DNA of 33,471 bases from contig JAJZOZ010000012.1 in the NCBI GenBank assembly GCA_021811405.1, positions 1 through 33,471 of the forward strand, in the 5' to 3' direction. Of the stretch, positions 186-25,022 are shown one piece after another. The first letter of the stretch is position 1, and the number at the start of each line of letters is the position of its first letter. The translations under genes were made by a program, and so were the position numbers. Below the pieces are notes generated by a model, which did no database searches, was not told the DNA's origin, and saw only the letters and a program-made list of their open reading frames with translations. The DNA comes from a bacterium (GTDB taxonomy: Bacteria; Elusimicrobiota; Elusimicrobia; Elusimicrobiales; UBA9959).

Positions 186-1079
186 ATGAAAAGCAAGAGA
201 ACTATCCTGCTGACCGGGGCCACCGGCTTCCTGGGCAGCAACCTGCTCGGCACGCTGACCGCCGACGGCTACGATATCATGGTGCTGGCCAGGCGCAGCT
301 CCGACCTCTCGCGCCTTAAAGCCCCGCCCGGAAAGCTGCGCGTAGTCTACGCGGAGGATTGCGACTACGAGGCGCTTTTCAGGGAATCCCGGATAGACGC
401 CGTGGTGCATTGCGCCACCAACTACGGCCGCCGGATGGATTTCCCGGTCTCCGTGCTGGAGGCGAACCTGATGCTGCCGCTGAAGCTGCTGCAGATAGGG
501 CAGGCCTCGGGGCTGAAGTGCTTCCTGAACACGGACACCATCCTGGACAAGCGGGTGAACTATTATTCCCTTTCGAAGAGCCAGTTCCGGGACTGGCTGA
601 AGCTGTACTCGGGGAAGCTGGCCTGCGTGAACGTCTCGCTGGAGCATTTCTACGGGCCCGACGACGACGACTCCAAGTTCGTCACCTGGGCGGTGCAGGC
701 GCTGATAAACGGCTCGCCGAAGCTGGAGCTGACGCCCGGCTACCAGAAGCGGGATTTCATCTACATAGACGACGTCTGCGGGGCGTTCTCCGCTGTCCTG
801 CGGAACTGCCTGCTGAAGGGCAGCGGTTTTTATTCCTACGAGGTCGGCTCCGGCGAGCCGGTCACTATCCGCGATTTCGTGGCGCTGATAAAGCGCCTCG
901 CCCGCAACGAGGCCACCGCGCTGGACTTCGGAGCTATCCCGTACAGGGAGAACGAAGTGATGGAGCACGCCACCGACCTGAGCGGGGTAATGGCCCTCGG
1001 CTGGCGGCCGAAGGTCTCGCTGCGCGACGGCCTTGCCCGCACGGTGGAATTCGAGACCAGGAGGAGAGGCGACAAATGA
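186..1079 (+). CDS. Extended SDR, probable CDP-paratose synthase-type 4-ketoreductase
   Basis: This 297-residue NAD(P)-dependent sugar-nucleotide reductase/epimerase has the Rossmann motif TGATGFLG at residues 10-17. The catalytic YxxxK is Y127/K131 (YSLSK), and a QKRDFIYIDDV segment near 188-197 is typical of extended SDRs. The combination LTPGYQKRDFIYIDDV resembles the RfbJ/RfbS (abequose/paratose synthase) branch as I remember it. Those enzymes reduce C-4 of CDP-3,6-dideoxy-4-keto-D-glucose. Its stop overlaps the start of a clear CDP-paratose 2-epimerase by ATGA, so paratose synthase is the best functional guess. Other 4-ketoreductases or epimerases cannot be excluded. The start ATG at 186 lies about 12 bases after an AAGG, and the protein begins directly with the first Rossmann strand. 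Confidence 0.75.
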   Translation: MKSKRTILLTGATGFLGSNLLGTLTADGYDIMVLARRSSDLSRLKAPPGKLRVVYAEDCDYEALFRESRIDAVVHCATNYGRRMDFPVSVLEANLMLPLKLLQIGQASGLKCFLNTDTILDKRVNYYSLSKSQFRDWLKLYSGKLACVNVSLEHFYGPDDDDSKFVTWAVQALINGSPKLELTPGYQKRDFIYIDDVCGAFSAVLRNCLLKGSGFYSYEVGSGEPVTIRDFVALIKRLARNEATALDFGAIPYRENEVMEHATDLSGVMALGWRPKVSLRDGLARTVEFETRRRGDK

Positions 1080-2098
1080 GATACTTGGTGACTGGCGGCT
1101 GCGGCTTTCTGGGCTCCAACATAGCCGCCGAGCTTATCGGCAGGGGGGAAGAGGTCCTGGTCTTCGACAATCTCTCCCGCCTGGGTTCGGAGCGCAACTT
1201 TTCCTGGCTGAAGGAGAAAGGACGGTTCTCTTTCGTTAAAGGCGACGTGAGGGCCGCGGAGGCGCTGGCCGGGGCGGTGAAGGATCTCAGGCCGGAGGTC
1301 ATCTTCCATCTGGCCGGCCAGGTGGCGATGACCACCTCTATAAAGGACCCGCGGCTGGACTTCGAGACCAACGCCCTCGGGACGCTGAACCTGCTGGAGG
1401 CGGCGAGGGCGCACGCCCCGGGAGCCGCCATCCTCTACTCTTCCACCAACAAGACCTACGGCGACCTGGAGTGGGTGAAGTACTCGGAAACGGACACCCG
1501 CTACGTGCCGGAGGGCTATCCCGCCGGCTTCCCGGAGAATATACCTTTGGACTTCCATTCCCCTTACGGCTGCTCCAAGGGCTCGGCCGACCAGTACATG
1601 CTGGATTACCACCGCATCTTCGGGCTGAGGACCGCCGTGTTCCGCCATTCCTCCATGTACGGCGGCCGGCAGTTTTCGACGTACGATCAGGGCTGGATAG
1701 GCTGGTTCGTGCAGAAGGCGGTAGAGATACAGGAAGGGCGGCTGAAGGAGCAGTTCACCATCTCCGGTAACGGCAAGCAGGTGCGCGACGTGCTGCACGC
1801 CGAGGACATGGTGGCCCTTTACCTGGCCGCTGCGGACAGGATGGAAGCGCTCAAGGGCAAGGCTTTCAACATAGGCGGCGGCATGCCCAACTCCCTGTCG
1901 CTGCTGGAGCTTTTCGCGATGCTCGAGGAGGAGCTGGGGATAAAGATGACCTATACCCGGCTCCCGCCGCGGGAGAGCGACCAGAAGGTGTTCGTGGCCG
2001 ATATCTCCAGGATAAGCGCCCTTACCGGCTGGGCCCCGAAGGTGGGCAAACGCGAAGGCGTGCGCAGGATGATAGAGTGGGTGAAGAATGGCGATTGA
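1076..2098 (+). CDS. rfbE: CDP-paratose 2-epimerase (CDP-tyvelose epimerase)
   Basis: A 340-residue extended SDR that interconverts CDP-paratose and CDP-tyvelose at C-2. Visible signatures are TGGCGFLG (6-13), YSSTNKTYGD (121-130), YGCSK with Y164/K168, and the stretch around 191-210 (SSMYGGRQFSTYDQGWIGW). That last stretch is characteristic of the RfbE/Tyv family and rarely seen in other epimerases. The length matches the family. The ATG at 1076 overlaps the previous stop (ATGA) and follows a strong purine-rich ribosome site at 1059-1069. A longer open frame extends upstream to 359 but only shadows the preceding gene. Together with gene 186-1079 it predicts CDP-tyvelose as a building block. 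The glucose-1-P cytidylyltransferase, the 4,6-dehydratase and the dedicated E1 dehydratase of the pathway are not in the window. Confidence 0.9.
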   Translation: MRYLVTGGCGFLGSNIAAELIGRGEEVLVFDNLSRLGSERNFSWLKEKGRFSFVKGDVRAAEALAGAVKDLRPEVIFHLAGQVAMTTSIKDPRLDFETNALGTLNLLEAARAHAPGAAILYSSTNKTYGDLEWVKYSETDTRYVPEGYPAGFPENIPLDFHSPYGCSKGSADQYMLDYHRIFGLRTAVFRHSSMYGGRQFSTYDQGWIGWFVQKAVEIQEGRLKEQFTISGNGKQVRDVLHAEDMVALYLAAADRMEALKGKAFNIGGGMPNSLSLLELFAMLEEELGIKMTYTRLPPRESDQKVFVADISRISALTGWAPKVGKREGVRRMIEWVKNGD

Positions 2099-2790: not shown

Positions 2791-3984
2791 ATGAAGACTT
2801 CCTGCGTCCCGGGCGAACGTGAACTGGAGCTGCTGGTCTCAGCGGTGCTCGCGGGGCTGCTCGCCTCCGTCGCTTTTCACGCGGCGAAAGCGTTCATCTT
2901 CGGCCTGAACGTCTACCCGCACAACACCTTCCTATTCACCCCGCTGGACAGGTTCAACGACTTCATCAACATATACAAGGCTTCGAGGAAACTGGCCCCG
3001 TTCTCCTCCGCGGTCAGCGTGTATCCGCCGTTCGCTTACGTCGTGATGTTGCCGTTTACGCTGGTAGGTAAAAAGATCGCCCTGTCCGCCATGCTAGCGG
3101 CTTTCACCATCTTCGTCTACCGCTACATGCGGGAGGCCGCCGGGGAGGCGGCCCCCGGTTTCGGCAGGCTCAAGCTAGTCGGCCTGGCGTTCCTCAGCTA
3201 CCCGTTCCTTTTCGTCTTCGACCGCGCGAATATAGAGGCGATGGTTTTCGTCTTCCTGGCCCTGTTCCTGCGATATTACCAGCGGAACGAGCGCCGGTAC
3301 AGCGTGTTCTTCCTGGCCTGCGCCATCGCGATGAAGATCTACCCGGCGGCGTTCCTGCTGGTCTTCCTCAGGGACAGGAAGTTCAAGGAATTCCTTTACG
3401 CCCTGCTGACGGCGGGGGGGCTGACCTTGCTGGCCATGGCCGTTTTCAAGGGCGGGGCGGAAGCCTCGTACCACGGCTTCATCGCGAACCTGGCCCGCTT
3501 TCGAGCGGACTACTTCTTTACAGAGTCTGGCCTGCAGCACAACGCCTCACTGTTCGGCGTGATGCGCCTGGCATACGGCAGGTTCCTGCCCGGGGCCCCG
3601 ATCCCGGAACTGCTGTACTCAGCGGCCGCCGGCGCTTTCGCCCTGCTCACTTTCTACTATGTGGTATTCCTGCGGGCCGAACTCTGGCGCGTTGTGGCGC
3701 TGATTGTCTGCTACATCATCGTCTTCCCGCAGATATCGTTCGACTACAAGCTTATCCACCTCCTGCTGCCGCTGACCCTTTTCCTGCGCAGGCAGGAGCG
3801 GCGGGCCTCCGATATGCTCTATCTGGGCCTCTTCGCCCTGATGCTGGTCCCGAAGGATTACGCCCTGATACGGGGCGACATCAGCATAGCCGTGCTGCTG
3901 AACCCGGCCATTCTGCTGGCGATGGCGGGGCTCCTCGTCGCAGAAGGCTTCCGCTCCGGGGCGGCGGCGGGGGGGCGCGCATGA
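2791..3984 (+). CDS. GT87-like (DUF2029) integral membrane glycosyltransferase
   Basis: A 397-residue polytopic inner-membrane protein with about nine to ten hydrophobic segments. After the first membrane segment comes a periplasmic-type loop with acidic residues D53 and D57 (LDRFNDFINIYKAS), then YPPF at 78-81 and FDRANIEAMVFVF near 145. This pattern is typical of GT87/DUF2029, a GT-C family that includes polyprenol-phosphate-mannose-dependent mannosyltransferases. In GT-C enzymes an acidic residue in the first loop is catalytic. It starts one base after the preceding GT2, which could supply its lipid-linked donor. Its last codons contain a run of seven G (3969-3975), and the stop overlaps the next gene (ATGA). 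The sugar transferred is unknown; it could alternatively act as a polymerase-like membrane enzyme. Confidence 0.75.
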   Translation: MKTSCVPGERELELLVSAVLAGLLASVAFHAAKAFIFGLNVYPHNTFLFTPLDRFNDFINIYKASRKLAPFSSAVSVYPPFAYVVMLPFTLVGKKIALSAMLAAFTIFVYRYMREAAGEAAPGFGRLKLVGLAFLSYPFLFVFDRANIEAMVFVFLALFLRYYQRNERRYSVFFLACAIAMKIYPAAFLLVFLRDRKFKEFLYALLTAGGLTLLAMAVFKGGAEASYHGFIANLARFRADYFFTESGLQHNASLFGVMRLAYGRFLPGAPIPELLYSAAAGAFALLTFYYVVFLRAELWRVVALIVCYIIVFPQISFDYKLIHLLLPLTLFLRRQERRASDMLYLGLFALMLVPKDYALIRGDISIAVLLNPAILLAMAGLLVAEGFRSGAAAGGRA

Positions 3985-4865
3985 GAAGACTGCTTTTAAC
4001 CGGCGGCAGCGGCTTCATAGGCAGGAACCTGCTGGAGTCTCCGCTGGCCCGAGCGCACGAGATAGCCGCTCCGCGTCACGGCGAGCTGGACCTGCTGGAC
4101 GAGGACGCGGTGGCGGGCTTCCTGCGGGACGGGCGTTTCGACGCCGTGATACATTCCGCGACCAAGCCCGGGCACCGCAACGCGAAGGAGCCCGGCAAGG
4201 TACTCTATGAGAACACCAGGATGTTCTTCAACCTCGCCCGCAACGCGGGACGCTTCGGGAAGATGCTGGTGATCGGCTCAGGGGCGATCTATGACATGCG
4301 GCATTACCGGCCTAAGATGAAAGAGGACTATTTCGACGCGCACGTGCCGGCGGACGAGCACGGCCTCTGCAAGTACGCCTGCGGCAAGTACATCGAGAAG
4401 GCCGACAATATCACGGACCTGCGCGTCTTCGGCATATACGGCAAATACGAGGATTACGCGATACGCTTCATCTCCAACATGATCTGCAAGGCCCTGTTCG
4501 GCCTGCCGCTGACGGTGAAGCAGAACCGCAGGTTCGACTATATCTGGGTGGAGGACCTGGCGCCGGTGCTGGAGCATTTCCTGGAGACCGGCGGCGCGCA
4601 CAAGGCCTATAACGTGACCCCCGACGAATCGGTGGAACTGCTGGCCCTGGCCAGGCTGGTCCTGAAGGTTTCCGGAAAAGACCTGCCTATAAGGGTCGCG
4701 CAGGAAGGGCTGGGGACCGAGTACAGCGGGGACAATTCCCTGCTCAGGTCCGAGATGAAGGGGTTCTCCTTCACTCCCTATGAGACGGCCGTCAGGAAAC
4801 TTTATGCCTGGTACGAAGGGAGTAAAGGCTCTATCGACAGGGAAGCGCTGCTTTTAGACAAGTGA
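3981..4865 (+). CDS. Extended SDR sugar-nucleotide reductase/epimerase
   Basis: A 294-residue NAD(P)-dependent extended SDR. It shows TGGSGFIG at 7-14, catalytic S100 in VIGSGAIYD, and Y132/K136 in YACGK. RRFDYIWVEDLAPVLEHF near 181-198 is the late-domain signature of sugar epimerases and reductases. The best broad match is the GDP-fucose-synthase/dTDP-4-dehydrorhamnose-reductase side of the family. It begins by ATGA overlap with the GT87-like gene and ends 10 bases before a TPP-dependent enzyme. One possibility is a YerF-like role, reducing an acetyl branch or 4-keto group made by that TPP enzyme. The substrate cannot be assigned from sequence. Confidence 0.8.
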   Translation: MRRLLLTGGSGFIGRNLLESPLARAHEIAAPRHGELDLLDEDAVAGFLRDGRFDAVIHSATKPGHRNAKEPGKVLYENTRMFFNLARNAGRFGKMLVIGSGAIYDMRHYRPKMKEDYFDAHVPADEHGLCKYACGKYIEKADNITDLRVFGIYGKYEDYAIRFISNMICKALFGLPLTVKQNRRFDYIWVEDLAPVLEHFLETGGAHKAYNVTPDESVELLALARLVLKVSGKDLPIRVAQEGLGTEYSGDNSLLRSEMKGFSFTPYETAVRKLYAWYEGSKGSIDREALLLDK

Positions 4866-4875
4866 GAACCACAGC

Positions 4876-6660
4876 ATGATCAAACTATCCGACTACGTAG
4901 CCAGAAGACTGACCGAGCACGGCGTGCGCGACGTGTTCATGATCTCCGGCGGCGGGGCCATGCACCTGAACGATTCCGTCGGCAAGTGCAAGGGCCTCCG
5001 GTATTTCTGCAATCACCACGAGCAGGCTTCGGCCATAGGCGCGGAAGGCTATTCGCGCGTCTCCGACCGGCTGGGGGTATGCGTGGTGACCACCGGCCCC
5101 GGCGGCACCAACAGCCTCACCGGACTGATAGGCCAGTGGCTTGATTCCATCCCCGCGCTCTACATATCCGGCCAGGTGAAGTTCGCGACCACAAAGGCTT
5201 CCTGCCCGGAGCTGGGCCTGCGCCAGCTGGGGGACCAGGAGATCAACATCGTGGATATCGTGCGGCCGGTCACCAAGCACGCGGTGATGCTGACGGACCC
5301 GTACCGCGTCCGGTACGAGCTGGACAAGGCGATATATCTGGCCACGACGGGGCGTCCGGGCCCGGCGTGGATAGACATACCGATAAACGTGCAGGCGGCG
5401 CTGATAGACGAGCGCAAGCTGCCGGCTTTCCGGCCGCCCCCGGCGCGCAAGCCGGACCTGAAGGCCAAGGCCGCCAAGGCCGCGGCCATGCTGAAGGCGG
5501 CGAAACGCCCGGTGATAATAGCGGGCCACGGCATACGGATAGCCGGGGCCGAGGACGAGTTCTGGAAGCTGGCCTCCCGGCTGGGCGCGCCCGTGCTGGC
5601 CACCTTCGCCGGTTTCGACATAGTCCCCGGCTCCAGCCCGCTCTATTGCGGCCGCATAGGCACCGTGGGCACGCGCGGAGGCAATTTCTCCCTGCAGAAC
5701 GCCGACCTGGTGCTGTCGCTGGCCTCGCGCAATAACGTGCGGCAGGCCAGCTACGACTGGGCTAATTTCGCCCACCGCGCGAAGAAGATCGTGGTGGACA
5801 TAGACCCCGCCGAGCTGGCAAAGCCTACGGTGAAGCCGGACCTGGCGGTGAACGCGGACGTGAAGGATTTCATCTCCGGGCTTCTTAAGGACCTTCCCGC
5901 CGGAGCCGGCGACCGCTCGGACTGGCTGGGCTGGTGCCGCGAGCGGAGCCGCCGCTACCCGGCGGTGCTGCCGGAATACAGGGGGATGAAGAAACTGGTC
6001 AGCCCCTATCATTTCGTGGAGGCCCTGACCTCCGCGCTCAGGCCCTCGGTGCCCGTGGTGGCCGGCAACGGCTCGGCCTGCGTCTGCCTGTTCCAGGCCG
6101 GCGTGGTCCACAAGGGACAGCGGCTGTTCTGGAACTCCGGCTGCGCCTCGATGGGCTATGACCTGCCTGCCGCCATAGGGGCCTGCCTTGGCGCCGGGAG
6201 AAAGGAGACGGTCTGCCTGGCAGGGGACGGCAGCATAATGATGAACCTGCAGGAGCTGGCCACCGTGGCCCATTACCGCCTGCCGCTGAAGATCTTCGTG
6301 CTGAACAACGACGGTTACGTGTCCATACGCCAGACCCAGGAGAATTTCTTCAACGCGCGCTACGTGGCCTGCGACAGCGGTTCCGGGGTCGGCTTCCCGG
6401 ACTTCCCGGCCGTCGGCGCCGCCTTCGGGCTGAAGACCGAGGTGATAGACTCGGTGCGCGGGATGGAGGCGAAGATAAAGAGGGTCATGTCGGCGAAGGG
6501 GCCGGTGCTCTGCGACGTGCGCCTGCCGGCGGACCACAAGTTCGTCCCCAAGCTTTCCTCCGAGAAGAGGCCGGATGGCAGCATGGTCTCAAAGCCCCTG
6601 GAGGACATGTGGCCGTTCCTCGACAGGGAGGAGTTCCGCCAGAACATGATAGCCGGCTGA
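4876..6660 (+). CDS. Thiamine-diphosphate-dependent enzyme, acetolactate synthase-like, of surface-polysaccharide type
   Basis: A 594-residue three-domain TPP enzyme. The N-terminal Pyr domain has the activating glutamate E49 in NHHEQASAIGAEGYSR. A central TPP_enzyme_M domain follows (about 190-330). The C-terminal PP domain has the Mg/TPP motif GDGS at 450-453, ending at N477-N478. The family makes or breaks C-C bonds next to a keto group, for example transferring a two-carbon unit from pyruvate. The tail (about 560-594) carries DGSMVSKPLEDMWPFL, an ending I associate with TPP enzymes of O-antigen loci rather than true IlvB. It is followed by an SDR, a cyclase-like gene, a kinase and a NeuB homologue, so it probably builds an unusual sugar. 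YerE, which adds an acetyl branch in CDP-yersiniose synthesis, is a functional precedent. Substrate unknown. Confidence 0.85.
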   Translation: MIKLSDYVARRLTEHGVRDVFMISGGGAMHLNDSVGKCKGLRYFCNHHEQASAIGAEGYSRVSDRLGVCVVTTGPGGTNSLTGLIGQWLDSIPALYISGQVKFATTKASCPELGLRQLGDQEINIVDIVRPVTKHAVMLTDPYRVRYELDKAIYLATTGRPGPAWIDIPINVQAALIDERKLPAFRPPPARKPDLKAKAAKAAAMLKAAKRPVIIAGHGIRIAGAEDEFWKLASRLGAPVLATFAGFDIVPGSSPLYCGRIGTVGTRGGNFSLQNADLVLSLASRNNVRQASYDWANFAHRAKKIVVDIDPAELAKPTVKPDLAVNADVKDFISGLLKDLPAGAGDRSDWLGWCRERSRRYPAVLPEYRGMKKLVSPYHFVEALTSALRPSVPVVAGNGSACVCLFQAGVVHKGQRLFWNSGCASMGYDLPAAIGACLGAGRKETVCLAGDGSIMMNLQELATVAHYRLPLKIFVLNNDGYVSIRQTQENFFNARYVACDSGSGVGFPDFPAVGAAFGLKTEVIDSVRGMEAKIKRVMSAKGPVLCDVRLPADHKFVPKLSSEKRPDGSMVSKPLEDMWPFLDREEFRQNMIAG

Positions 6661-6671
6661 CGGGAGATATT

Positions 6672-7355
6672 ATGAGAAAAGCTCTGATACTGGGCGGCGA
6701 CGGCGGGATAGGTTCCGCGATCTGCCGCGAGTTCCGGCGCAACGGCTGGAAGGTGCTGGCCCCCGCGATAAAGGAGTGCGACCTCTCCAGCCCGGATTCG
6801 GTCGAGAGGTATCTCGCGGCCAACGCCGGGGCGTTGAAGGGCGTAGACGCTCTGGTGCACAGCGCGGGCATCAATGAGCCGGGGCCCTTCGAGAAGATAG
6901 GCATGGCGGATTTCGAGCGGATAGCCCAGGTGAACACCTTCTCTTTCGTGCGCGTCATGCAGCATTTCGCCCCTCTGTTCAAGAAGAAGCGCCGCGGACA
7001 TATCCTGGCCATATCCTCTCTCTATGGAGGATTTTCGCGCGCTGGCCGCATGCCGTACGCGCTTTCCAAGCACGGGCTGAACGGCGCGGTGAAGACGGCG
7101 GCGCTGGAGCTGGGCCCTTACGGCGTGATCGCGAACACGCTTTCGCCCGGTTTCGTGGATACGCCGCTTACCCGCAAGAACAACGGCCAGGCGGTCATAC
7201 GCTCTTTCGAGGAGCGGATACCGCTGGGCTTCCTCGCCGCGCCGGCCGACATCGCCAGGGCCGCCTACTTCCTCTGCTCGCCGCAGAACACCTACATCAC
7301 CGGCCAGGACATAGTGGCCGACGGCGGCTACTCGGCCGGGGGGTTCCAGAAATGA
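6672..7355 (+). CDS. Classical SDR oxidoreductase (FabG-like fold)
   Basis: A 227-residue classical short-chain dehydrogenase. The cofactor motif is GGDGGIG at 8-14, a variant of TGxxxGIG. HSAG is at 63-66, the catalytic serine is S115/S116 in AISSLYG, Y129/K133 form YALSK, and the C-terminal GQDIVADGGY is typical. I start at ATG 6672, which has GGAG five bases upstream and begins directly at the first Rossmann strand. An in-frame ATG at 6609 would overlap the TPP gene by 52 bases and add unrelated residues. The stop overlaps the next start (ATGA). In this cassette it probably oxidises or reduces an intermediate made by the TPP enzyme or the cyclase. It need not be a fatty-acid reductase. Confidence 0.88.
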   Translation: MRKALILGGDGGIGSAICREFRRNGWKVLAPAIKECDLSSPDSVERYLAANAGALKGVDALVHSAGINEPGPFEKIGMADFERIAQVNTFSFVRVMQHFAPLFKKKRRGHILAISSLYGGFSRAGRMPYALSKHGLNGAVKTAALELGPYGVIANTLSPGFVDTPLTRKNNGQAVIRSFEERIPLGFLAAPADIARAAYFLCSPQNTYITGQDIVADGGYSAGGFQK

Positions 7356-8491
7356 GGAACTCATTTTCTGTGGGAACGAAGAAATTCCGGGTGCCGGCCG
7401 GCTTCGCCGCTTGGCGCTCCTGCGTGATAAACTCCGTGCCTTCCCCGTACCCGGTGAAGGTGGACCAGGCCGGCCCCGCCGCGCAGGTGGCCGCGCTGCT
7501 GGCGGAGAACCCCGGCAACCTGCTGCTGGCCGACAGGCGGGTCTGGGAACTGCACCTGAAGGGCCTGAAGGTGGACCGCAGCCGCGTCTTTTTGGCGCCG
7601 GCCACGGAGAGCTTCAAGACGCAGGCCGGCATATTCAGGGTGGTGGACTTCCTGGCGCGGCGCGGCTTCACGAAAAAGGAGAAGCTGATAGTCGTGGGCG
7701 GCGGGATAATAGAGGACGTCGGCGCCTTCGTGGGCGCGGTATATAAACGCGGGATAGACTGGGTCTATTTCCCGACCACGCTGCTGTCGATGTGCGACAG
7801 CTGCATAGGCGGCAAGACCGGCATAAACTACAAGAAGGCCAAGAACCAGCTGGCGCTCTTCTCCGCGCCGCGCGCGGTGGTCATCAACCCCGCCTACCTC
7901 GGCACCCTGCCCTACCGGCACGTACTTTCCGGCCTCGGAGAGGCCCTGAAGCTGCATATCACCGGCGGGGGGGGGGCGTTCCGCAACTACGCCGCCAACG
8001 TGGACGCCGCGCTGAAGATGGACCTGCCGGCCCTCGTGCGGATCATCAAGGGCTCCCTGACGATAAAGCGGCTGGTGGTGGAATACGACGAGTTCGAGAA
8101 GGACGTCAGGCGCTCGATGAACTACGGCCACACGGCGGGCCACGCGCTCGAGGTGATGTCCGGCTACCGCATCTCGCACGGCGAGGCCGTGACCGTCGGC
8201 ATGATCGTAGCCAACGAGCTGTCCCGGCGGATGGGGCTCCTGTCCGCCGCGAAGGCCGGGCTCCTGGAAGGCGGCATGATGAAGCTGCTCGCGCCGGGGA
8301 CCAGGCGGGAACTGGCGCGCGTGCGCACCGGACAGCTGGCCGCGCTGCTGTTGAAGGACAAGAAGACGCAGGGAAAGAAGGCCAATTTCGCGCTGATAGA
8401 GGACCTCGGCAGGATGAGGATGGTCCCTGTTGCCATCGACGCTTCGCTCTGCGGCGCCATCTCGGAGATATTGGCGGAGAAGTTCAGATAG
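7352..8491 (+). CDS. Dehydroquinate-synthase-like sugar-phosphate cyclase
   Basis: A 379-residue member of the DHQ synthase/sedoheptulose-7-phosphate cyclase superfamily. These NAD+- and metal-dependent enzymes eliminate phosphate and close a six-membered carbocycle. Visible motifs are GGGIIEDVGAF (116-126, NAD binding), PTTLLSMCDS (141-150), IGGKTGIN (152-159) and the three metal ligands E197 (LGEALK), H260 (NYGHTAGH) and H276 (ISHGEAV). The usual GKN.IG.F motif is changed to AKNQLALF (163-170), and the helix after E197 reads LKLHITGGGG, unlike AroB (IKYG). About 33 extra N-terminal residues precede the fold. Its neighbours include a sugar kinase and a NeuB homologue rather than shikimate genes. 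I infer a secondary cyclase making a cyclitol or carbocyclic sugar. A run of ten G at 7967-7976 lies in the coding sequence. Confidence 0.87.
   Translation: MRNSFSVGTKKFRVPAGFAAWRSCVINSVPSPYPVKVDQAGPAAQVAALLAENPGNLLLADRRVWELHLKGLKVDRSRVFLAPATESFKTQAGIFRVVDFLARRGFTKKEKLIVVGGGIIEDVGAFVGAVYKRGIDWVYFPTTLLSMCDSCIGGKTGINYKKAKNQLALFSAPRAVVINPAYLGTLPYRHVLSGLGEALKLHITGGGGAFRNYAANVDAALKMDLPALVRIIKGSLTIKRLVVEYDEFEKDVRRSMNYGHTAGHALEVMSGYRISHGEAVTVGMIVANELSRRMGLLSAAKAGLLEGGMMKLLAPGTRRELARVRTGQLAALLLKDKKTQGKKANFALIEDLGRMRMVPVAIDASLCGAISEILAEKFR
7967..7976 (+). repeat. G10 homopolymer inside the cyclase gene
   Basis: Ten consecutive G cover codons 206-208 and the first base of codon 209, encoding the end of a four-glycine loop. 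It is the longest single-base run I noticed; other G runs (3414-3420, 3969-3975, 9680-9686, 31625-31631) have seven. Gain or loss of one G would frameshift the protein just after the metal ligand E197 and before H260 and H276, so it would inactivate the enzyme. Slippage of this kind is a known phase-variation mechanism in surface-sugar genes of other bacteria. Here it is only a possibility. Confidence 0.9.
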
Positions 8492-9871
8492 ATGCCGAAG
8501 ATAATACTGGTCGATCTCGGCGCCTCGCGCATAAAATCCGCGCTCGCGGACCTGCGCACCGGCACCATTACCCTGGAGCGCAGCCAGCCTTCGCTGCCCC
8601 CGCTCGGCGCGGCGGGCACGTTCGAGGTGCCTGCCGGCCTCCTGGTCCGTAAATTCAGGGAGATCTGCTCCTCATACGCCGAAGAGGCGCGTGGGGGAGT
8701 GGAAGGCGTGGTGCTGTGCTCGGAGATGCACGGCTTCGCGGTGGCCGGCCCGGACGGCCGTTTTAAGACCGGCTATATAAGTTGGAAGGACGCCAGAGGT
8801 CTGGCCGCGCTGAAAGGAGTTTCGGCGCTGGACCTGGTCTCGCGCGGCCTGGGAGCCGGGTTCCGTGCCGCTACCGGGATGACGCTGCGCCCGGGTCTCC
8901 CCTATGTGAACGCCTTTCATCTGGCGCGCGCCCGGGTCCTCCGTACGGGAGACAGGATACTCTCGCTGCCGGAGCTCCTTACGTACCGGGGAGGCCGCCC
9001 TGCCGGCGCGCATGAGACCATGACGGCGGGACTGGGCTTCTACGACATCTACCGCGGAGGGACATCCGCCCGGCTGGCCGATTTCTTCAGACGGGAGACA
9101 GGTGTTTCGCCGGAACTGGCGGAGCCGGCCGGCACTGGCGCATGCGGCTTCGTGCGCTGCGGGGACCGGGAACTGCCTGTCTTCCCTGGCCTGGGAGACC
9201 ACCAGTGCGCGGTGCTCGGCGCCGGGAACGGCCCCGATACCGTTTCAGTGAATATGGGCACCGGGTCCCAGGTCTCGATCCTTTCCAGGAAAAGGGAGCC
9301 CAGGCGTAACCAGCAGCGCCCGTTCTTCGACGGCTATCTGTTGAGCACGATAACTCATATTCCCGGAGGGCGCGCCCTCAACGAGTTCACCGGCTTCCTG
9401 CGGAGCACGGGGGAGCTGTTCGGAGCCGGACGACCGGACGTGTGGAAGGTCCTGGCCGGGATAAGCCGCGCCGAGGCGGAGGCCTCAACGCTGAATTTCG
9501 ACCTGGGGATCTTCCCGGGGGCCTGGGGCGGGACCGGCGCCGGGGCAGTGGGCGGGATGACCGAAGGCTCGCTGACCCCGAGGAACTATCTGGCGTCGCT
9601 GCTCAGGTCTTTCGCGGCGCAGTACTGCGCGGCGGTAGCGGAGCTGCGGCCTCCGGCGGGCCGCCCGGCGCTGCTGAGCGGGGGGGTTTCGCAGAGGCTC
9701 CCGCAGCTGGCCGGGCTGATAGCGGGCGGTACGGGCCGCAGAACGCGGATCTCCGCCGAGCGGGAAGAGACCTTCGCCGGGCTGAGGGCGGCCGCCGCGG
9801 TATATTCGGGAAGGTCTGACAGTTTTATCAAAGCAGTCAAAAAGTACAGACAATGGAGGAAGCGGAAATGA
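8492..9871 (+). CDS. FGGY-family carbohydrate kinase, sedoheptulokinase-like
   Basis: A 459-residue sugar kinase of the FGGY family (ribulokinase, xylulokinase, sedoheptulokinase). The N-terminal phosphate-1 loop is [12 protein letters not shown] (7-18). The catalytic base D236 sits in [11 protein letters not shown], the phosphate-2 loop is [10 protein letters not shown] (253-262), and a C-terminal [17 protein letters not shown] helix matches the adenosine-binding region. The compact length and GDHQ...MGTGSQ arrangement resemble sedoheptulokinase more than glycerol kinase. It begins directly after the cyclase stop. Sugar-phosphate cyclases need a phosphorylated ketose, so this kinase could supply the leaving-group phosphate. 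Which sugar it phosphorylates is unknown. The C-terminus is strongly basic ([10 protein letters not shown]). Confidence 0.85.
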
Positions 9872-10944
9872 GAGACATCTTCGAGGAACTTTTCGTGCTG
9901 GAGGTGGCCAATAACCACTGGGGGAAGCTCTCCCGCGGTCTGAAGATCATAGACGAGTATTCCAAGATCGTCAGGTTCAACAACGTCCGGGCCGCCATCA
10001 AGCTGCAGTTCCGCGACGTGGACAACTTCATCCACAAGGATTTCATGAAGCGCACCGATATCCGCTACATCAAGAAGACCCTCGACACCAAGATGTCGAA
10101 GGACCACTTCGCCAAAATGATGGGGGCGGTCAAGAAGGGCGGCTGCATACCCATGGTGACGCCTTTCGACGAGAAGTCGGTGGACACCGCGGTCGAGCTC
10201 GGAGCCGAGATCCTGAAGATAGCCAGCTACGACATCAACGACTGGTTCCTGCTGGAGAAGATAGCCTCCGTTAAGAAGCCGGTTATAGTCTCTACCGGCG
10301 GCACCTCTCTGAAGGACATAGACGACATCGTCACGTTCTTCTCCAACCGCAACATCCCGCTGGCCATCAACCACTGCGTATCCCTCTACCCGAGCGAGGA
10401 TTGCGAGCTTCACATCAACCAGATAGATTTCCTGAGGCGCCGCTATCCGGAGCACGTCATAGGGTTCTCTACGCACGAGTACCACGACTGGCAGGCCTCG
10501 ATAATGATGGCCTACGCCAAGGGCGCGCGCACTTTCGAGCGCCACGTGGATATCGACGACGACGGGATCCCGGTGTCGCCTTACTGCTCCGTGCCGCACC
10601 AGGTGGACACCTGGTTCAAGGCTTTCCATAAGGCCAAGGAGATGTGCGGCGGCAGCTGCACCGAGAAGCGCGTCCCCAGCGAGAAAGAAGTGGCCTACCT
10701 GGACGCGCTCGTTCGCGGCGTCTACGCAAAACGCCGCCTGCCGAAGGGCCACAAACTGTCGGAGGACGACGTCTATCTAGCCGTGCCGCTGCAGAAAGGC
10801 CAGATATCCTGCCGCGAGTTCATGGCGGGCGAGGTGCTGCTGAAGCACTGCGAGAAGGACCAGGCGCTGATGATAGACATGATAGACAGTCCCTATGCCG
10901 GGAACGAATCTCTCAAGCGGCTCATTTACAAGAGGGGGATCTGA
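9868..10944 (+). CDS. NeuB-family PEP-dependent ulosonic acid synthase (variant)
   Basis: A 358-residue homologue of N-acetylneuraminate synthase, which condenses PEP with an aldose to give a 2-keto-3-deoxy acid. Family features are EVANNHWG with E12, K45 in [16 protein letters not shown] (98-106), LKIASYD (116-122), metal-type histidines H169 (INHCVSLYP) and H193 (STHEYHDW), and ERH with H216. A C-terminal SAF-like domain lies at about 279-315. Differences from true NeuB include an alanine at 42 where sialic synthases have Asp three residues before the Lys, and no SGE motif. I use ATG 9868, which overlaps the kinase stop as ATGA and follows GGAGGA at 9855-9860. ATG 9853 lacks a ribosome site. 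No sialic, legionaminic or pseudaminic CMP-transferase or epimerase is nearby, so the acceptor sugar is probably unusual. Confidence 0.85.
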
Positions 10945-10949
10945 AGCCG

Positions 10950-11603
10950 GTGGCCCGGAAGTTCGACAATATCATCTTTGACCTGGACGGTACCCTCGTC
11001 GATTCCTCGGGAGACATCGGGGATTGTCTGGCGCTGGCCTTTTCCGGTACTCCCGGCGCGGGTGCTTTCTCGCGGCTGGAGAAAGCATGGCTCGGCCTGC
11101 CGCTGAAGGAGATAGTCTCCGCCGCCAGCCCCGGGCTGCCGGCCGAGCGCGCCAGGGCGGTATGTCTGCGGTTCAGGGAGATATACGACGCATCAGAGTA
11201 TCCTCGGACGGGTCTGATGCCCGGGTCCGCCGCGGCCCTGGCCGCGCTGGCGGGGGGCGGGAAGGCGCTGTTCGTGGCCACTAATAAACCTCTAAAACCC
11301 ACCCTTCGCATCGCCGGGCAGCTTAAGATCTCGCCGTTCTTCCGGGAGATAGCCTGTCCCGATCTGCTGGCCGGAAGGCAGATGACCAAAAGCGGCATGC
11401 TGGCCTTCCTGATAGATAAATGGGGGCTGGAGCCCTCCGCGACGCTGATGGTGGGGGATACCGAGCCCGACGTGGCGGCCGCGCGCGCCAACGCGCTCGG
11501 CTGCGCCTACTATGCCGCGGGCTACGGCGGGAGAGAGCTGGGCCGGGCGCTGCGCCCGGATATCTTGCTGGAGGATATGGGGTTGCTGCCCTCCCTTCTC
11601 TGA
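10950..11603 (+). CDS. HAD-superfamily phosphatase (phosphoglycolate phosphatase-like), GTG start
   Basis: A 217-residue HAD hydrolase. Motif I is FDLDGTLVD with nucleophile D11 and acid/base D13. Motif II is T111 in VATNKP, motif III is K147 in MTKSGM, and motif IV is MVGDTEPDVAAAR with D170 and D174. The cap is of the small helical type. The frame has no ATG in this region. GTG 10950 is the plausible start, giving MARKFDNIIFDLDG, with a G-rich stretch (10931-10938) upstream. The NeuB-like gene ends five bases before it. In the cassette it probably removes the phosphate from a sugar or cyclitol phosphate, as KdsC-type phosphatases do after ulosonic acid synthases. It could also be a general phosphoglycolate-like phosphatase. 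Confidence 0.82.
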   Translation: MARKFDNIIFDLDGTLVDSSGDIGDCLALAFSGTPGAGAFSRLEKAWLGLPLKEIVSAASPGLPAERARAVCLRFREIYDASEYPRTGLMPGSAAALAALAGGGKALFVATNKPLKPTLRIAGQLKISPFFREIACPDLLAGRQMTKSGMLAFLIDKWGLEPSATLMVGDTEPDVAAARANALGCAYYAAGYGGRELGRALRPDILLEDMGLLPSLL

Positions 11604-11604
11604 T

Positions 11605-11985
11605 ATGCTTACGATTTTCTGGGATAACAGGTTCCTGCGCTTCCTGCTGGTGGGGGCGCTGAACACGGCTTTCGGCTATTCTGTCTTCGCTCTGTTCATC
11701 TATGCCGGGCTGCATTATTCCCTGGCGGCGTTCCTGGGAACGGCGGTCGGCGTCATGTTCAATTTCAAGTCCACGGGCAGGATAGTGTTCGGCAACAGGG
11801 ATGACCGCCGCATCTTCAGGTTCGTCGCCGTCTACGGCGTGGTATACCTGGTCAACGTCCTGGCGCTGAAGTTGCTGGCCGCGGCGGGGATGAACCTGTA
11901 CGCGGCCGGCGCGGTATTGCTGCTGCCGCTCGCGGCGCTGTCCTTTTTCTTGAACAAGACTTTGGTTTTCCAGGGGGAGAGATGA
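11605..11985 (+). CDS. gtrA: GtrA-family small membrane protein
   Basis: A 126-residue protein with four hydrophobic segments (about 10-32, 38-55, 70-90, 98-116). Two copies of the GtrA signature are visible: FNFKSTGRIVF near 52-62 and FFLNKTLVF near 114-122. GtrA proteins are thought to help move an undecaprenyl-phosphate sugar across the inner membrane for GtrC-type transferases. The ATG at 11605 is one base after the HAD stop. An in-frame ATG at 11512 would add 31 residues that merely read the HAD gene in another frame. The stop overlaps the GtrB-like gene (ATGA), reproducing the classical gtrA-gtrB order. Confidence 0.88.
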   Translation: MLTIFWDNRFLRFLLVGALNTAFGYSVFALFIYAGLHYSLAAFLGTAVGVMFNFKSTGRIVFGNRDDRRIFRFVAVYGVVYLVNVLALKLLAAAGMNLYAAGAVLLLPLAALSFFLNKTLVFQGER

Positions 11986-12911
11986 AATTGGTCAGTATTG
12001 TCACGGCCTGTTATAACGAGGAAGAGAACGTCGGAAAGCTCTGCTCCGCGGTAAGGGAGGTCTTCTCCGGCCTTGGGGGCTACTCGTACGAGCATCTATT
12101 CATAGACAACGCGTCGGAGGACGGGACCTTCGCGGCGCTCAAGCGCGAGGCGGCGGCCGACAAACGCGTCAAGATCATCCGCAACTCCCGCAATTTCGGG
12201 CATATACGCTCCCCTTTCCATGCCCTGCTCCAGGCCAACGGTGACGCCGTGATATCGCTGAGCGCGGACTTCCAGGACCCCCCTGCCCTTATCGCGGATT
12301 TCCTGCGGTTGTGGGAGTCGGGCAGCATGATAGTCGCCGGAGTAAAGACACGCAGCGAGGAATCTCCGCTGCTTTTCCGCCTCCGTCAGTACTCCTACGG
12401 CCTGATGAACAGGATATCGGAAGTGCGCCATGTCGAGAATTTCACCGGTTTCGGGCTTTACGACAGAAGGGTGATAGATATCCTGCGCGGCATAAACGAC
12501 CCGTATCCTTACTTCAGAGGCCTGATAGCCGACATCGGATTCGAGATAGCGAAAGTGGAATACAAGCAGCCCGCCCGTCGCTCCGGGGTTACCAAGAACA
12601 ACTTCTATTCTCTGTACGACATGGCGATGCTCGGGTTCACCAACTATTCCAAGATCCCTCTGCGCGCGGCGACCTTCCTGGGTTTCATAATGTCGGTACT
12701 GAGCCTCTTCGTGGCTTTCGTCTATCTGGTATACAAGCTGATCTACTGGGAGCAGTTCTCGCTGGGCATGGCCCCGGTGGTAATCGGCCTCTTCTTCATG
12801 TTCTCCGTTCAACTCCTCTTTCTGGGCATCGCCGGCGAGTATATATGCTCCATACATACCAAAGTGCTGAGGCGTCCGTTGGTGATCGAGGCGGAAAGGG
12901 TGAATTTCTGA
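11982..12911 (+). CDS. gtrB: GtrB-like polyprenol-phosphate glycosyltransferase (GT2)
   Basis: A 309-residue GT2 enzyme with an N-terminal catalytic domain and two C-terminal membrane helices (about 228-252 and 262-288). The start VSIVTACYNEEENV and the motif SADFQDPP (95-101, with D96 and D99) match the GtrB/ArnC/DPM1-like group. RRSGVTKNNFYSLYD near 197-211 is the conserved segment just before the helices. It would transfer a sugar from a nucleotide donor to undecaprenyl phosphate on the cytoplasmic face. It is translationally coupled to GtrA upstream and followed five bases later by a large membrane protein that could be the GtrC-type transferase. The sugar is not predictable: GtrB is usually glucose-specific, but relatives use other sugars. 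Confidence 0.87.
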   Translation: MKLVSIVTACYNEEENVGKLCSAVREVFSGLGGYSYEHLFIDNASEDGTFAALKREAAADKRVKIIRNSRNFGHIRSPFHALLQANGDAVISLSADFQDPPALIADFLRLWESGSMIVAGVKTRSEESPLLFRLRQYSYGLMNRISEVRHVENFTGFGLYDRRVIDILRGINDPYPYFRGLIADIGFEIAKVEYKQPARRSGVTKNNFYSLYDMAMLGFTNYSKIPLRAATFLGFIMSVLSLFVAFVYLVYKLIYWEQFSLGMAPVVIGLFFMFSVQLLFLGIAGEYICSIHTKVLRRPLVIEAERVNF

Positions 12912-12916
12912 AAACT

Positions 12917-15076
12917 ATGCAGGAATCCAGAGATAAAAAACTGGCGTTGCTCCTGTTCCAGGCCGCCATCGCTTTCTCCGGTCTGGGTGCATTGGCATGG
13001 CAGTCCGGCGAACGGCTGAAGAACCTGCTGCTGTCCGCACCTTTCGACGGGGTCATCGCATGGACACTGCCTTTCTATCATCCCTACCAGAACTCCCTGC
13101 TGAACTATGCGCTGCTCTGCCTCGTGATGTCCGTGGCCGGTCTGTCCGTTTATTTCCTGCTGGCCGGTACGGAGAGGCTTGAGGACGTCGTTTCTGCCCA
13201 GGAACCGCGCCATGCCTGGACAACGGTCGCGATCTGCGTCTTTTTCGCCGCGGGAAGACACTATATGCCACGCGAGCTGATGTTTCTGTCCTTCTTCCTC
13301 TCCCCAGGGTTAGCGCATCTCTCGTTGGCAAATATTAGGCCTTTCCTCCCAGTTGCCTCCGCGGTCCTTCTGCTCGGTCTCTGTCTCGAGCCGGTCCGAG
13401 TGTCCACGGGCAGGGTATTGCTGATGAACGAGTACCCTGACCTGAACGAGGAGACCATGATGGCGGGGCACTACGTGCTGAACCGGGATTTTCTGGTGGA
13501 CATTTCCACGTCTTCCCAGGCCGCCGCTGAGTTCATGAAGAAGAACATCTACGAGTATTCCCACCAGAACATGGGCCGTGGACAGCTTAACCATATCGGA
13601 CATGTCCTGAACCCGCTGAGCGAGTACGAGGCGGGCAAGCCGCGTTCCGCGATATTCATGCAGTACGGTTTTGGGAACACCATGCTTTTCCGCTGGACGA
13701 TGGAACTCTTCGGCGGCCTTTCTCTCCACAACTACTACAAGTGCTACTGGTATTACGTGCTGTACTATATGCTTTTCGCGGCGGCCGCGGTTCTTATCTT
13801 CAGGGACACCTCTTACATCTTCTTCGCGCTCTGCGGCCTTGCTGGCTCGGCTTTCGCCTGCAACTATGTGGGCTTCATACTGGCGCCGGGTATAATCCCG
13901 ACCATACATTTCGCTGATGTCCTGGTCCTCCTGCTTTTGCCGGGATTCTTCGCCAGGCCAGGCTACGGGAAGGCCGCCATGCTGGCCCTGCTCGCCTTCG
14001 GGGCCGTATTCCTTAACCGCCAGTTCGGCGCCGTGCTGGCGTTATCAGCCGGCGCAGCCGCGGCGCTCTATTTCGCGGAGAATTTCAGCATCAGACGCGC
14101 GGCTCCGGCTGTAGCGGCCTGTCTGGTGCTCCCTGCCGCTGCCGTGCTGTTCTCCGTGCTTTCCGCCGGAGGTAGTGCCGGTTCCGACGCGATGGCGCAG
14201 TACCTGTCCGGCTTCCTGTCTTTCAGGCCACCGGGGAAGGTGGTGGACATGACCGTAGTCTACCTGGCGCTCTCCTACCTGTTCCTGTTCCGGCTCAAGC
14301 CGGCGCGTTCGGCCGCTAAATATCTATATGTATTCGTCTTCCTGTACGCCCAGGGTATGTTGTTCTATTTCTACTGGTCCGGCCTGCTGAACCACCTCCC
14401 GATGGCCGCGCCGTTCCTGTGTCTGCAGCTTTTCTTGATGTTCAGGATGGTAGAGAAGAGAGAGGTCGAGCTGCCAGAGGTGTTCCGTGACTGGCTGCCT
14501 TACGCCAGGGGAGTTGCCGGCGGGATCGTGTTCCTGCTGATGCTCAAATTCCTGTTCTTCTTCTATTCCGGGCCGTTCGGAATGCTGGAATTTAGCCGCA
14601 TTTTCGGCGTTCATCGCACCTACAACTGGAGTTTCGAGAGGGCGAGGGTGGAATCTACTACCGACCCGGCCCCGCTGCGGGCGGCGGTAGAGCTGCTGCG
14701 GAAATATTCCGGTGCGGAGAACGGGATAGTGATGGTTTCGCGCTATGACAACCTTGTGCCTTTCCTGGCAGGTAAATACAATAGGCTCCAGTTCTTCGAC
14801 CTATCCTGGTATCTCACCACGGAGAGCCGGCTGAACGCCGTCGTCTCCCGTCTGTGCGCCGAGAGACCAGAGTACCTTTTTGTCGATACCGATATCGACG
14901 CGAACCCGTCGGATCAGCTGGCGAAGCTTTTTGCCGGGCCGCCCCATGATACGGAGAGAGCTTCTAGATTCGGACGACTTGAAGGCCTGCGGCGTGTCTT
15001 CGACTCTATTTCCGGCGACTACCGACTGAAAGAGGCAGGGCAGTTGATCTCCGTATATGAGCGTGTGCGCAGATAG
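12917..15076 (+). CDS. Large polytopic membrane protein, candidate GtrC-like GT-C glycosyltransferase
   Basis: A 719-residue protein I do not recognise by family. It has a first hydrophobic helix (about 9-25), roughly ten to twelve further membrane segments up to about 555, and a soluble C-terminal domain (about 565-719). An acidic/aromatic loop after the first helix (SAPFDGVIAWTLPFYHPYQN, about 41-60) is placed like the catalytic loop of GT-C enzymes. Position directly after GtrA and GtrB matches gtrC, the least conserved member of such cassettes. I start at ATG 12917; a longer in-frame opening to 12311 only shadows the GtrB gene. It uses more A/T-ending codons than the genes at 23096-28803 by eye. 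A polymerase role (Wzy) is an alternative. Confidence 0.65.
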   Translation: MQESRDKKLALLLFQAAIAFSGLGALAWQSGERLKNLLLSAPFDGVIAWTLPFYHPYQNSLLNYALLCLVMSVAGLSVYFLLAGTERLEDVVSAQEPRHAWTTVAICVFFAAGRHYMPRELMFLSFFLSPGLAHLSLANIRPFLPVASAVLLLGLCLEPVRVSTGRVLLMNEYPDLNEETMMAGHYVLNRDFLVDISTSSQAAAEFMKKNIYEYSHQNMGRGQLNHIGHVLNPLSEYEAGKPRSAIFMQYGFGNTMLFRWTMELFGGLSLHNYYKCYWYYVLYYMLFAAAAVLIFRDTSYIFFALCGLAGSAFACNYVGFILAPGIIPTIHFADVLVLLLLPGFFARPGYGKAAMLALLAFGAVFLNRQFGAVLALSAGAAAALYFAENFSIRRAAPAVAACLVLPAAAVLFSVLSAGGSAGSDAMAQYLSGFLSFRPPGKVVDMTVVYLALSYLFLFRLKPARSAAKYLYVFVFLYAQGMLFYFYWSGLLNHLPMAAPFLCLQLFLMFRMVEKREVELPEVFRDWLPYARGVAGGIVFLLMLKFLFFFYSGPFGMLEFSRIFGVHRTYNWSFERARVESTTDPAPLRAAVELLRKYSGAENGIVMVSRYDNLVPFLAGKYNRLQFFDLSWYLTTESRLNAVVSRLCAERPEYLFVDTDIDANPSDQLAKLFAGPPHDTERASRFGRLEGLRRVFDSISGDYRLKEAGQLISVYERVRR

Positions 15077-15155: not shown

Positions 15156-15177
15156 TATATTGCATGAGAGGATCTGC

Positions 15178-23052: not shown

Positions 23053-23095
23053 TTGTTATTATTAATTGCCGGATTTGTATTTTCCAGGTCATGGG

Positions 23096-23986: not shown

Positions 23987-23996
23987 CGAGGATAAA

Positions 23997-25010: not shown

Positions 25011-25022
25011 GCTGGAGAAACT

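Follow-up and report, generated by a model that had tools for sequence, protein, structure and literature searches.

A swappable module around a DHQS-like enzyme, predicted to serve the synthesis of an unusual branched surface sugar

YerE and JanthE are ThDP-dependent enzymes that transfer the acyl portion of a 2-keto acid onto a keto sugar, JanthE being a YerE-like ketone-coupling enzyme, and a review cites more than 200 predicted YerE-like enzymes, mostly without a known structure (PMC12247030). For ErwE, the erwiniose enzyme, the same review gives 4-hydroxy-2-oxo acids as donors and CDP-4-keto-3,6-dideoxyglucose as acceptor, with a similar donor preference for MMAR_2332, its caryophyllose counterpart (PMC12247030). 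The accessible parts of the erwiniose and caryophyllose literature mention no NeuB or DHQS-like gene and give no origin for the donor acid of caryophyllose, and we found no list of the genes around MMAR_2332 of Mycobacterium marinum in the papers examined. The portions of the YerE-like enzyme literature that were available likewise hold no description of a source for longer 2-keto acids.

Gene clusters built around DHQS-superfamily enzymes other than AroB are known from the ebo operon (EboD) and from ValA-type cyclitol pathways, and both EboD and ValA group with sedoheptulose-7-phosphate (S7P) cyclases (PMC5133447, PMC4426668). An eleven-gene cluster that includes a dTDP-glucose 4,6-dehydratase gene has been proposed for bradyrhizose; the paper on that cluster does not mention a dehydroquinate synthase, and a link to bradyrhizose was dropped.

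Here we describe a six-gene cassette in a polysaccharide locus of an Elusimicrobiota bacterium, contained in a stretch of 33,471 nucleotides (the window). The cassette shares a YerE/JanthE-type ThDP enzyme with the yersiniose A pathway, and its relatives also share RfbF/G/H and a reductase. YerE uses pyruvate, whereas the cassette and its relatives carry a dedicated candidate maker of 2-keto acids (NeuB or HpcH) and, optionally, a DHQS-like module. With the erwiniose and caryophyllose systems the cassette would have in common a YerE-like enzyme acting on longer 4-hydroxy-2-oxo acids. It resembles the ebo and ValA clusters in being arranged around a non-AroB member of the DHQS superfamily, but the partner genes differ. 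Read from gene content, the product of the cassette is very probably a branched surface sugar of an unusual kind.

Cassette layout and recurrence

The original prediction described six tightly packed genes in a polysaccharide locus, among them a cyclase with three metal ligands, as a sugar pathway without earlier description. The ORF check confirmed all six genes as in frame and tightly packed, the metal ligands E197, H260 and H276 are all present in the cyclase, and we accept the claim of a new pathway. Catalytic motifs are intact on inspection in the ThDP enzyme (GDG at 450, where JanthE has CDG, and the HHEQ catalytic glutamate at 47), the SDR (YxxxK, GGxGGIG), the FGGY kinase (GDHQ) and the HAD phosphatase (DLDGT, GDTEPD). 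The window FGGY protein itself has no Pfam match; its AlphaFold model (pLDDT 85.6) resembles PDB structures of xylulose, gluconate and glycerol kinases. For the HAD gene a GTG start is preferred, position 10941 carrying a CTG codon. Upstream, the two PDB entries matched by the second gene are both CDP-tyvelose 2-epimerases, with the next family reaching only 130 bits, and its neighbour probably encodes a CDP-paratose synthase (RfbS/Prt-like), judging from that adjoining epimerase gene. The GtrA-like and GT2 genes downstream are common 3′ neighbours of such operons, also present in L034, L037, L043 and L052.

Table 1. Genes of the cassette and its surroundings in the window
Feature	Coordinates	Strand	Evidence
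NAD-dependent epimerase/dehydratase family	186..1079	+	Pfam Epimerase; no specific NCBIfam match
CDP-tyvelose (CDP-paratose) 2-epimerase	1079..2098	+	PDB 9rl0 530 bits, 1orr 454 bits
EPI, extended-SDR reductase or epimerase, adjoins ThDP enzyme gene	3981..4865	+	53% identity to L037 EPI
ThDP (TPP) enzyme, JanthE/YerE-like	4876..6660	+	Pfam TPP_enzyme N/M/C; JanthE 8rph 421 bits
Classical SDR	6672..7355 (ATG at 6672)	+	Pfam adh_short
DHQS-like cyclase, B clade	7352..8491	+	Pfam DHQ_synthase + DHQS_C
FGGY kinase	8492..9871	+	FGGY_N in orthologues; fold match
NeuB-family synthase, 3g8r type	9853..10944	+	PF03102
HAD phosphatase	10950..11603 (GTG at 10950)	+	Pfam Hydrolase/HAD_2
GtrA-like membrane protein	11605..11985	+	GtrA_DPMS_TM
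GT2 glycosyltransferase, directly after GtrA-like gene	11982-12911

When named genomes were scanned using only the window cyclase, no relative came up; relatives were obtained when a NeuB alignment served as the query. The order SDR-cyclase-FGGY-NeuB is kept in seven related genomes (L037, L038, L039, L040, L043, L045 and L046), and SDR-cyclase-FGGY also lies near NeuB and the ThDP enzyme in Nitrospirota (L061), Planctomycetota (L110) and Coxiellaceae (L116), in the last of which NeuB is on the opposite strand. The six genes are part of an exchangeable module that occurs in several bacterial phyla. The expectation that the gene set would co-occur elsewhere held for these families, but not for the HAD gene, which is patchy and also adjoins NeuB in many loci that have no cyclase. 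Plasmid and phage collections, searched for the cyclase, yielded AroB and S7P cyclases, which served as the outgroup, but nothing clearly related to the cyclase clade. HpcH adjoins RfbF-RfbG on a plasmid of Novosphingobium humi, with neither a ThDP enzyme nor a cyclase nearby. An Ilyobacter match was judged unrelated.

The NeuB-ThDP core and the module exchange

The window NeuB has in common with the sialic, pseudaminic and legionaminic acid synthases (NeuB, NnaB, PseI) a PEP-using NeuB TIM barrel. It differs from them in lacking a Pfam SAF domain and in scoring below the NCBIfam cut-offs for N-acetylneuraminate and pseudaminate synthases (116 bits against 400 and 105 bits against 340, respectively). 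Among solved structures, 3g8r (229 bits, against 83 for the next NeuB) is nearest to it; that entry is described as a ‘probable’ spore coat polysaccharide protein. The idea that such an enzyme extends a chain with PEP is retained: it would add PEP to an aldose to give a 3-deoxy-2-ulosonic acid. A ThDP enzyme gene is nearby in 74 of the 80 nearest NeuB loci, within 1.5 kb in 61 of them, and genes for CDP-3,6-dideoxyhexoses often accompany the pair. SDR-cyclase-FGGY, by comparison, occurs in only 4 of the 80. NeuB and the ThDP enzyme are therefore a widespread core, and SDR-cyclase-FGGY is an optional insert. In the tree, NeuBs from loci with and without this insert are intermixed; NeuB therefore probably keeps the same acceptor, and the module would act at a later stage.

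The ThDP enzyme had been assigned a tailoring role. Its match to JanthE in the PDB comparison exceeds that to the best acetolactate synthase (266 bits), and we propose instead that it is a YerE/JanthE-like coupling enzyme that needs the 2-keto acid of NeuB and joins it to a CDP-3,6-dideoxyhexose at the 4-keto position. The CDP-tyvelose epimerase gene indicates that the locus handles CDP-3,6-dideoxyhexoses. Because of this epimerase and of the RfbF/G/H genes found in operons orthologous to the cassette, the acceptor is very likely CDP-4-keto-3,6-dideoxyhexose. Against the favoured pathway, no match to RfbG or RfbH exceeded the cut-off in the assembly; the epimerase genes lie close to the start of the contig. 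The EPI gene adjoins the ThDP enzyme or NeuB gene in many relatives, and we propose that EPI would reduce the branch ketone after coupling. For the core as a whole, we consider it likely that NeuB feeds a YerE-like branching of a CDP-sugar. The pair would then be a general answer, spread over many phyla, to where YerE-like enzymes obtain longer 2-keto acids.

Within one genus the operon exists in three states: EPI-NeuB-TPP (L181, L182), EPI-SDR-CYC_B-FGGY-NeuB-TPP (L043) and EPI-HpcH-SDR-CYC_A-TPP (L034), where CYC denotes the cyclase. Comparison with the plain state shows a clean insertion. Between two operons with upstream flanks that are 93% identical, HpcH aldolase-SDR-cyclase A (the A module, formed by TIGR04425 members) is exchanged for SDR-cyclase B-FGGY-NeuB (the B module), and ThDP enzymes from A and B loci interleave in the tree. 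Because the modules swap between such similar flanks, they probably deliver equivalent products. Since nature has exchanged the modules in front of the same ThDP enzyme gene, the cyclase-like step can be tested directly.

The SDR accompanies the cyclase, always adjoining it, in 24 of 24 cyclase loci compared, and it would reduce the ketone of the cyclase product. FGGY is confined to the B module and absent from all A-module loci compared. The suggestion that the kinase installs the leaving phosphate is plausible; it would phosphorylate a terminal hydroxyl and so supply the phosphate that the cyclase expels.

A DHQS-like clade distinct from AroB

The A and B cyclases form one clade with support of 99/99, outside both AroB and the S7P cyclases. 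The window enzyme falls in the B clade, whose loci carry FGGY and NeuB and which is sister to TIGR04425 (‘AroB-related putative sugar phosphate phospholyase, cyclizing’). It has the active site and the adjoining SDR in common with that family, but at 282 bits it does not reach the family cut-off of 400; its score against aroB is 257 bits (NCBIfam). All 14 DHQS active-site positions checked are conserved, the carboxylate pocket included, and the fold is that of AroB. Cys151, Leu236 and Asn288, by contrast, are conserved in 25 of 25 sequences and were seen in none of the AroBs compared. The original prediction that this enzyme is not AroB is borne out by its separate clade and by a true AroB on another contig of the same genome (C209). 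It seems that an enzyme of the type used in aromatic amino-acid synthesis was recruited into a sugar module, where we propose that it acts as an NAD-dependent phosphate lyase or cyclase. Since every checked AroB active-site residue is kept, its substrate is probably the NeuB or HpcH product, a 3-deoxy-2-ulosonate 7-phosphate.

Two readings bear directly on this placement. Polysaccharide loci are mosaics and the cyclase keeps the AroB active site, as one would expect of a duplicated AroB that landed by chance beside unrelated sugar genes in a variable locus; the AroB elsewhere in the genome, the well-supported separate clade, the gene order shared across many genomes and phyla and the clean module swap make this reading scarcely credible. 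A valiolone-type S7P pathway, in which FGGY would supply heptulose 7-phosphate for the cyclase to convert into a C7 cyclitol, the substrate of the SDR and NeuB, could draw on the DHQS-like fold and on the general ability of FGGY kinases to phosphorylate ketoses. The equivalents of K250, R264, N268 and H275 are, however, kept in every A and B cyclase compared, where four annotated or presumed S7P cyclases have M, a variable residue, D or A, and P, and one annotated DOIS has K, G, E and H. The signature residues of S7P cyclases and DOIS are absent from the window cyclase, no A-module locus has FGGY, and NeuB is independent of the cyclase. Sedoheptulose-phosphate chemistry was rejected on the active-site residues, and we rate this pathway as very improbable.

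A candidate route to a C4-branched sugar

Gene identities, the swap and insertion, the clade, the active site and the NeuB-ThDP pairing were computed; from these we infer which substrates are used, in what sequence the steps run and how the cyclase step ends. In the first step of the favoured pathway, NeuB would join PEP to a short aldose to give a 3-deoxy-2-ulosonic acid. In the B module FGGY would then phosphorylate the terminal hydroxyl of this acid. In the A module an HpcH/HpaI-type aldolase would join pyruvate to an aldose phosphate, and the module can be free of a kinase because that aldose is already phosphorylated. The DHQS-like enzyme would bind the carboxylate-bearing ulosonate 7-phosphate and expel phosphate by oxidation, elimination and re-reduction. 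The ring would most likely be left open, because closure would destroy the 2-keto group that the ThDP enzyme requires, and the resulting 7-deoxy-6-keto acid would be reduced by the SDR to a 3,7-dideoxy-hept-2-ulosonate. The ThDP enzyme would decarboxylate this 2-keto acid and add its acyl group to the 4-ketone of the CDP-3,6-dideoxyhexose, after which EPI would reduce the branch ketone. The branch predicted in this way would be 1,3,4,5-tetrahydroxyhexyl, the same as in the published structure of caryophyllose (PMC5706390).

We put forward the whole pathway as a tentative reading with a little under an even chance of being right; its product would be a higher-carbon sugar branched at C4, of the yersiniose/erwiniose/caryophyllose class, destined for a surface polysaccharide. 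That the clade consists of non-cyclizing sugar-phosphate lyases, which with the SDR supply omega-deoxy 2-keto acids for YerE-like coupling, is more tentative still. In AroB, ring closure follows easily after phosphate loss. This ease and the intact residues count against an open chain, the comparison of active sites having revealed no change that would indicate blocked closure; so does the name ‘cyclizing’ that NCBIfam gives the sister family, as a hypothetical equivalog. Also counting against the pathway are the HAD gene, which lies in the same cassette as the kinase and is unaccounted for, and cyclase-SDR pairs that have no ThDP enzyme or 3g8r-type NeuB nearby (L047-L049, L041, L044).

Ring closure could instead follow coupling. 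The ThDP enzyme would couple the phosphorylated ulosonate first, the cyclase would close a cyclohexane on the branch ketone and the SDR would reduce the ring ketone, yielding a C4-cyclitol-branched sugar. An intact DHQS active site in a member of the sugar phosphate cyclase superfamily and the naming of TIGR04425 agree with this order, and a NeuB unchanged by the module permits action after the ThDP enzyme. Yet the carboxylate-pocket residues are kept, although the substrate would by then be decarboxylated and burdened with a CDP-sugar, and EPI is retained in A and B operons, although closure would use up its presumed ketone; we regard this order as unlikely. It is the one nearest to the idea first put forward for the cassette. 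Of the product classes named there, a branched higher sugar is best supported and a carbocyclic one is possible but not the best reading, as closure on the free ulosonate would consume the ketone on which the ThDP enzyme depends.

The fully conserved pocket and the pairs in L047-L049 that occur without a ThDP enzyme would also suit two separate products: the cyclase would close free ulosonate 7-phosphate as AroB does, the SDR would then give a carbocyclic acid resembling quinate, used to decorate the glycan, and the ThDP enzyme would use pyruvate for a yersiniose-type sugar. Among the genes of the operon none was recognised as encoding an enzyme to activate or transfer this acid, NeuB is paired with the ThDP enzyme in most loci without a cyclase, and the modules swap precisely before the same ThDP enzyme gene, which together make separate products distinctly improbable.

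If the favoured open-chain deoxygenation is correct, this family, whose annotation is ring formation, also carries out another chemistry, and a route to sugars of the caryophyllose/yokenose type follows; we know of no earlier open-chain outcome in the DHQS superfamily. If the ring closes, the cyclitol-branched sugars so formed would be a class of their own, and new. In either case, annotation as aroB, neuB or acetolactate synthase is likely to be wrong for members of these families encoded in polysaccharide loci.

An exchangeable module on a constant operon

The six cassette genes called by the original prediction lie where it placed them, as open reading frames with the expected domains, the most likely starts being 6672 for the SDR and 10950 for the HAD gene. 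Their products carry the expected Pfam domains except for the FGGY protein, which has no Pfam match of its own; its orthologues do match, and its structural model has a kinase fold. Catalytic motifs are unbroken. The genome encodes a true AroB separately, on contig C209; the window takes up contig C64 in full.

We compared the loci that encode the 80 closest NeuBs in named genomes from many phyla, a sample picked by similarity and therefore biased in its fractions. A TPP gene is on the locus in 74 of these, on the same strand in 69 and within 1.5 kb in 61, and Rfb genes occur at 41, whereas SDR, cyclase and FGGY genes accompany only 4/80 (L061, L079, L110 and L116). G161, a genome of the window's order, carries a NeuB identical to the one in the named Elusimicrobia MAG at L079, which places the window in the phylum Elusimicrobiota.

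One Elusimicrobiota genus holds three states of the same operon: a plain state, RfbF-G-H-EPI-NeuB-TPP (L181, L182), where EPI is a reductase/epimerase of the extended-SDR type; a B state, RfbF-G-H-EPI-SDR-CYC_B-FGGY-NeuB-TPP (L037, L040, L043), with a window-type cyclase; and an A state, RfbF-G-H-EPI-HpcH-SDR-CYC_A-TPP (L034, L050), with an HpcH aldolase and a TIGR04425 cyclase. The B loci show that the gene set, apart from the HAD gene, recurs outside the window's genome. L034 and L043 share 93% identity up to the EPI end and 88% from the TPP start, with only the module exchanged between; relative to L182, L043 has SDR-CYC-FGGY inserted exactly at the EPI/NeuB junction. Loci of the window's family carry the module after TPP instead, in variants A (L035, L052), NeuB with CYC_A (L036) and B (the window). 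Genome G135 has SDR-CYC_B-FGGY (L041) and NeuB-TPP (L185) on different contigs. HpcH may also associate with CDP-sugar genes by itself, as Novosphingobium humi suggests (Table).

TPPs from A and B operons interleave in their tree, and a single genome holds two that are almost the same (L045, L051), which suggests that both modules supply equivalent inputs to the TPP enzyme. Module-bearing and module-free NeuBs are likewise intermixed, so NeuB probably uses the same acceptor in either context and the module works after it.

The cyclase clade and its predicted substrate

A and B cyclases group together (99/99), apart from both AroB and the sedoheptulose-phosphate cyclases, in keeping with the original view of the window enzyme as no ordinary AroB, in a tree whose long branches leave the exact position of DOIS and some AroBs unsure. 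Cys151, Leu236 and Asn288, conserved in 25/25 cyclases and peculiar to the clade, mark it as distinct without telling the reaction outcome. The compared A and B cyclases retain every one of the 14 active-site positions of DHQS, with D in place of E at position 260 in A, a change that some AroBs also have. Four positions separate cyclases of carboxylate-less substrates and, going by DHQS structures, presumably bind the substrate carboxylate: A and B have K/R/N/H, as AroB does, whereas sedoheptulose-phosphate cyclases have M/variable/D or A/P and DOIS K/G/E/H.

From these residues we predict a 3-deoxy-2-ulosonate 7-phosphate as substrate. This fits an FGGY-phosphorylated NeuB product in B, or an HpcH product formed from an aldose phosphate in A, and would explain why only B carries a kinase. 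DHQS geometry would demand a C7 ulosonate, and hence a C4 aldose acceptor. In L047–L049, TIGR04425-SDR pairs lie beside Gfo/Idh/MocA-type oxidoreductases with no YerE-like TPP gene near them; the pair may therefore have a second use beyond the TPP-linked pathway. No cyclase of the A+B clade could be traced to an organism whose glycan structure is solved.

A possible open-chain route to a branched sugar

The nearest solved relative of the window TPP enzyme is JanthE (8rph, 421 bits), followed by acetolactate synthase (266 bits). JanthE and YerE decarboxylate a 2-keto acid and couple what remains of it to a ketone. For yersiniose A, YerE uses pyruvate as donor and CDP-3,6-dideoxy-4-ketoglucose as acceptor; longer 4-hydroxy-2-oxo acids are preferred by ErwE (erwiniose), and the donor preference of MMAR_2332 (caryophyllose) is similar (PMC12247030). 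A NeuB product is a 4-hydroxy-2-oxo acid, the same kind of compound as these last donors.

Ring closure on the free ulosonate is doubtful, because it would use up the 2-ketone that the TPP enzyme requires; carbocyclization after TPP coupling, or of a side product, is possible. In the open-chain scheme that we favour, the cyclase would expel phosphate and leave the ring unclosed, giving a 7-deoxy-6-keto acid that the SDR would reduce to a 3,7-dideoxy-hept-2-ulosonate. TPP coupling and reduction by EPI, the proposed branch-ketone reductase, would then yield a 3,6-dideoxyhexose bearing a 1,3,4,5-tetrahydroxyhexyl branch, and EPI and SDR would each have a task of their own. Caryophyllose is 3,6-dideoxy-4-C-(D-altro-1,3,4,5-tetrahydroxyhexyl)-D-xylo-hexose (PMC5706390). 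Its skeleton is the same as that of the product predicted by the open-chain scheme. Yokenose, we assume, shares this skeleton.

Sugar setting

The window is a polysaccharide locus with glycosyltransferases, and its CDP-tyvelose 2-epimerase implies CDP-3,6-dideoxyhexoses. RfbG and RfbH, which make the precursor of these sugars, had no match over cut-off in this assembly, but the contig begins just upstream of the epimerase genes, and RfbF/G/H are present in orthologous operons of relatives.

Table. Features of the window and of compared loci
Locus	Position	Feature	Remark
Window	1079-2098	CDP-tyvelose 2-epimerase	530 bits to solved CDP-tyvelose epimerase
Window	3981-4865	EPI	beside TPP gene
Window	4876-6660	TPP enzyme	
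Window	6672-7355	SDR	
Window	7352-8491	Cyclase (CYC_B)	
Window	8492-9871	FGGY kinase	
Window	9853-10944	NeuB	
Window	10950-11603	HAD	
Window	12914-15076	720-residue protein without Pfam match	seemingly many membrane segments; between GT2 and nucleotide-sugar genes
Window	15160-17279	GDP-fucose-synthase-like gene (306 bits, cut-off 500), then RfbH-like DegT gene (211 bits, cut-off 423)	presumably resembles ColC/ColD of GDP-colitose synthesis
Window	18297	GT10 fucosyltransferase-like gene	with the preceding pair
Window	23066-26156	Consecutive RmlD-like, Polysacc_synt_2 and UDP-GlcNAc 2-epimerase genes	usual set for UDP-N-acetyl-fucosamine-type sugars
Window	27400	Bac_transf initiating sugar transferase	after the preceding trio
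L036	10978-12759	Second, divergent TPP paralogue (37% identical)	adjoins EPI and main TPP gene
L047	8500-11100	TIGR04425-SDR pair	
L048	7655-11427	TIGR04425-SDR pair	2-hydroxyacid dehydrogenase also beside it
L049	6398-10152	TIGR04425-SDR pair	2-hydroxyacid dehydrogenase also beside it
L154 (N. humi plasmid)	8037-10807	Consecutive RfbF-RfbG-HpcH	no TPP or cyclase gene nearby
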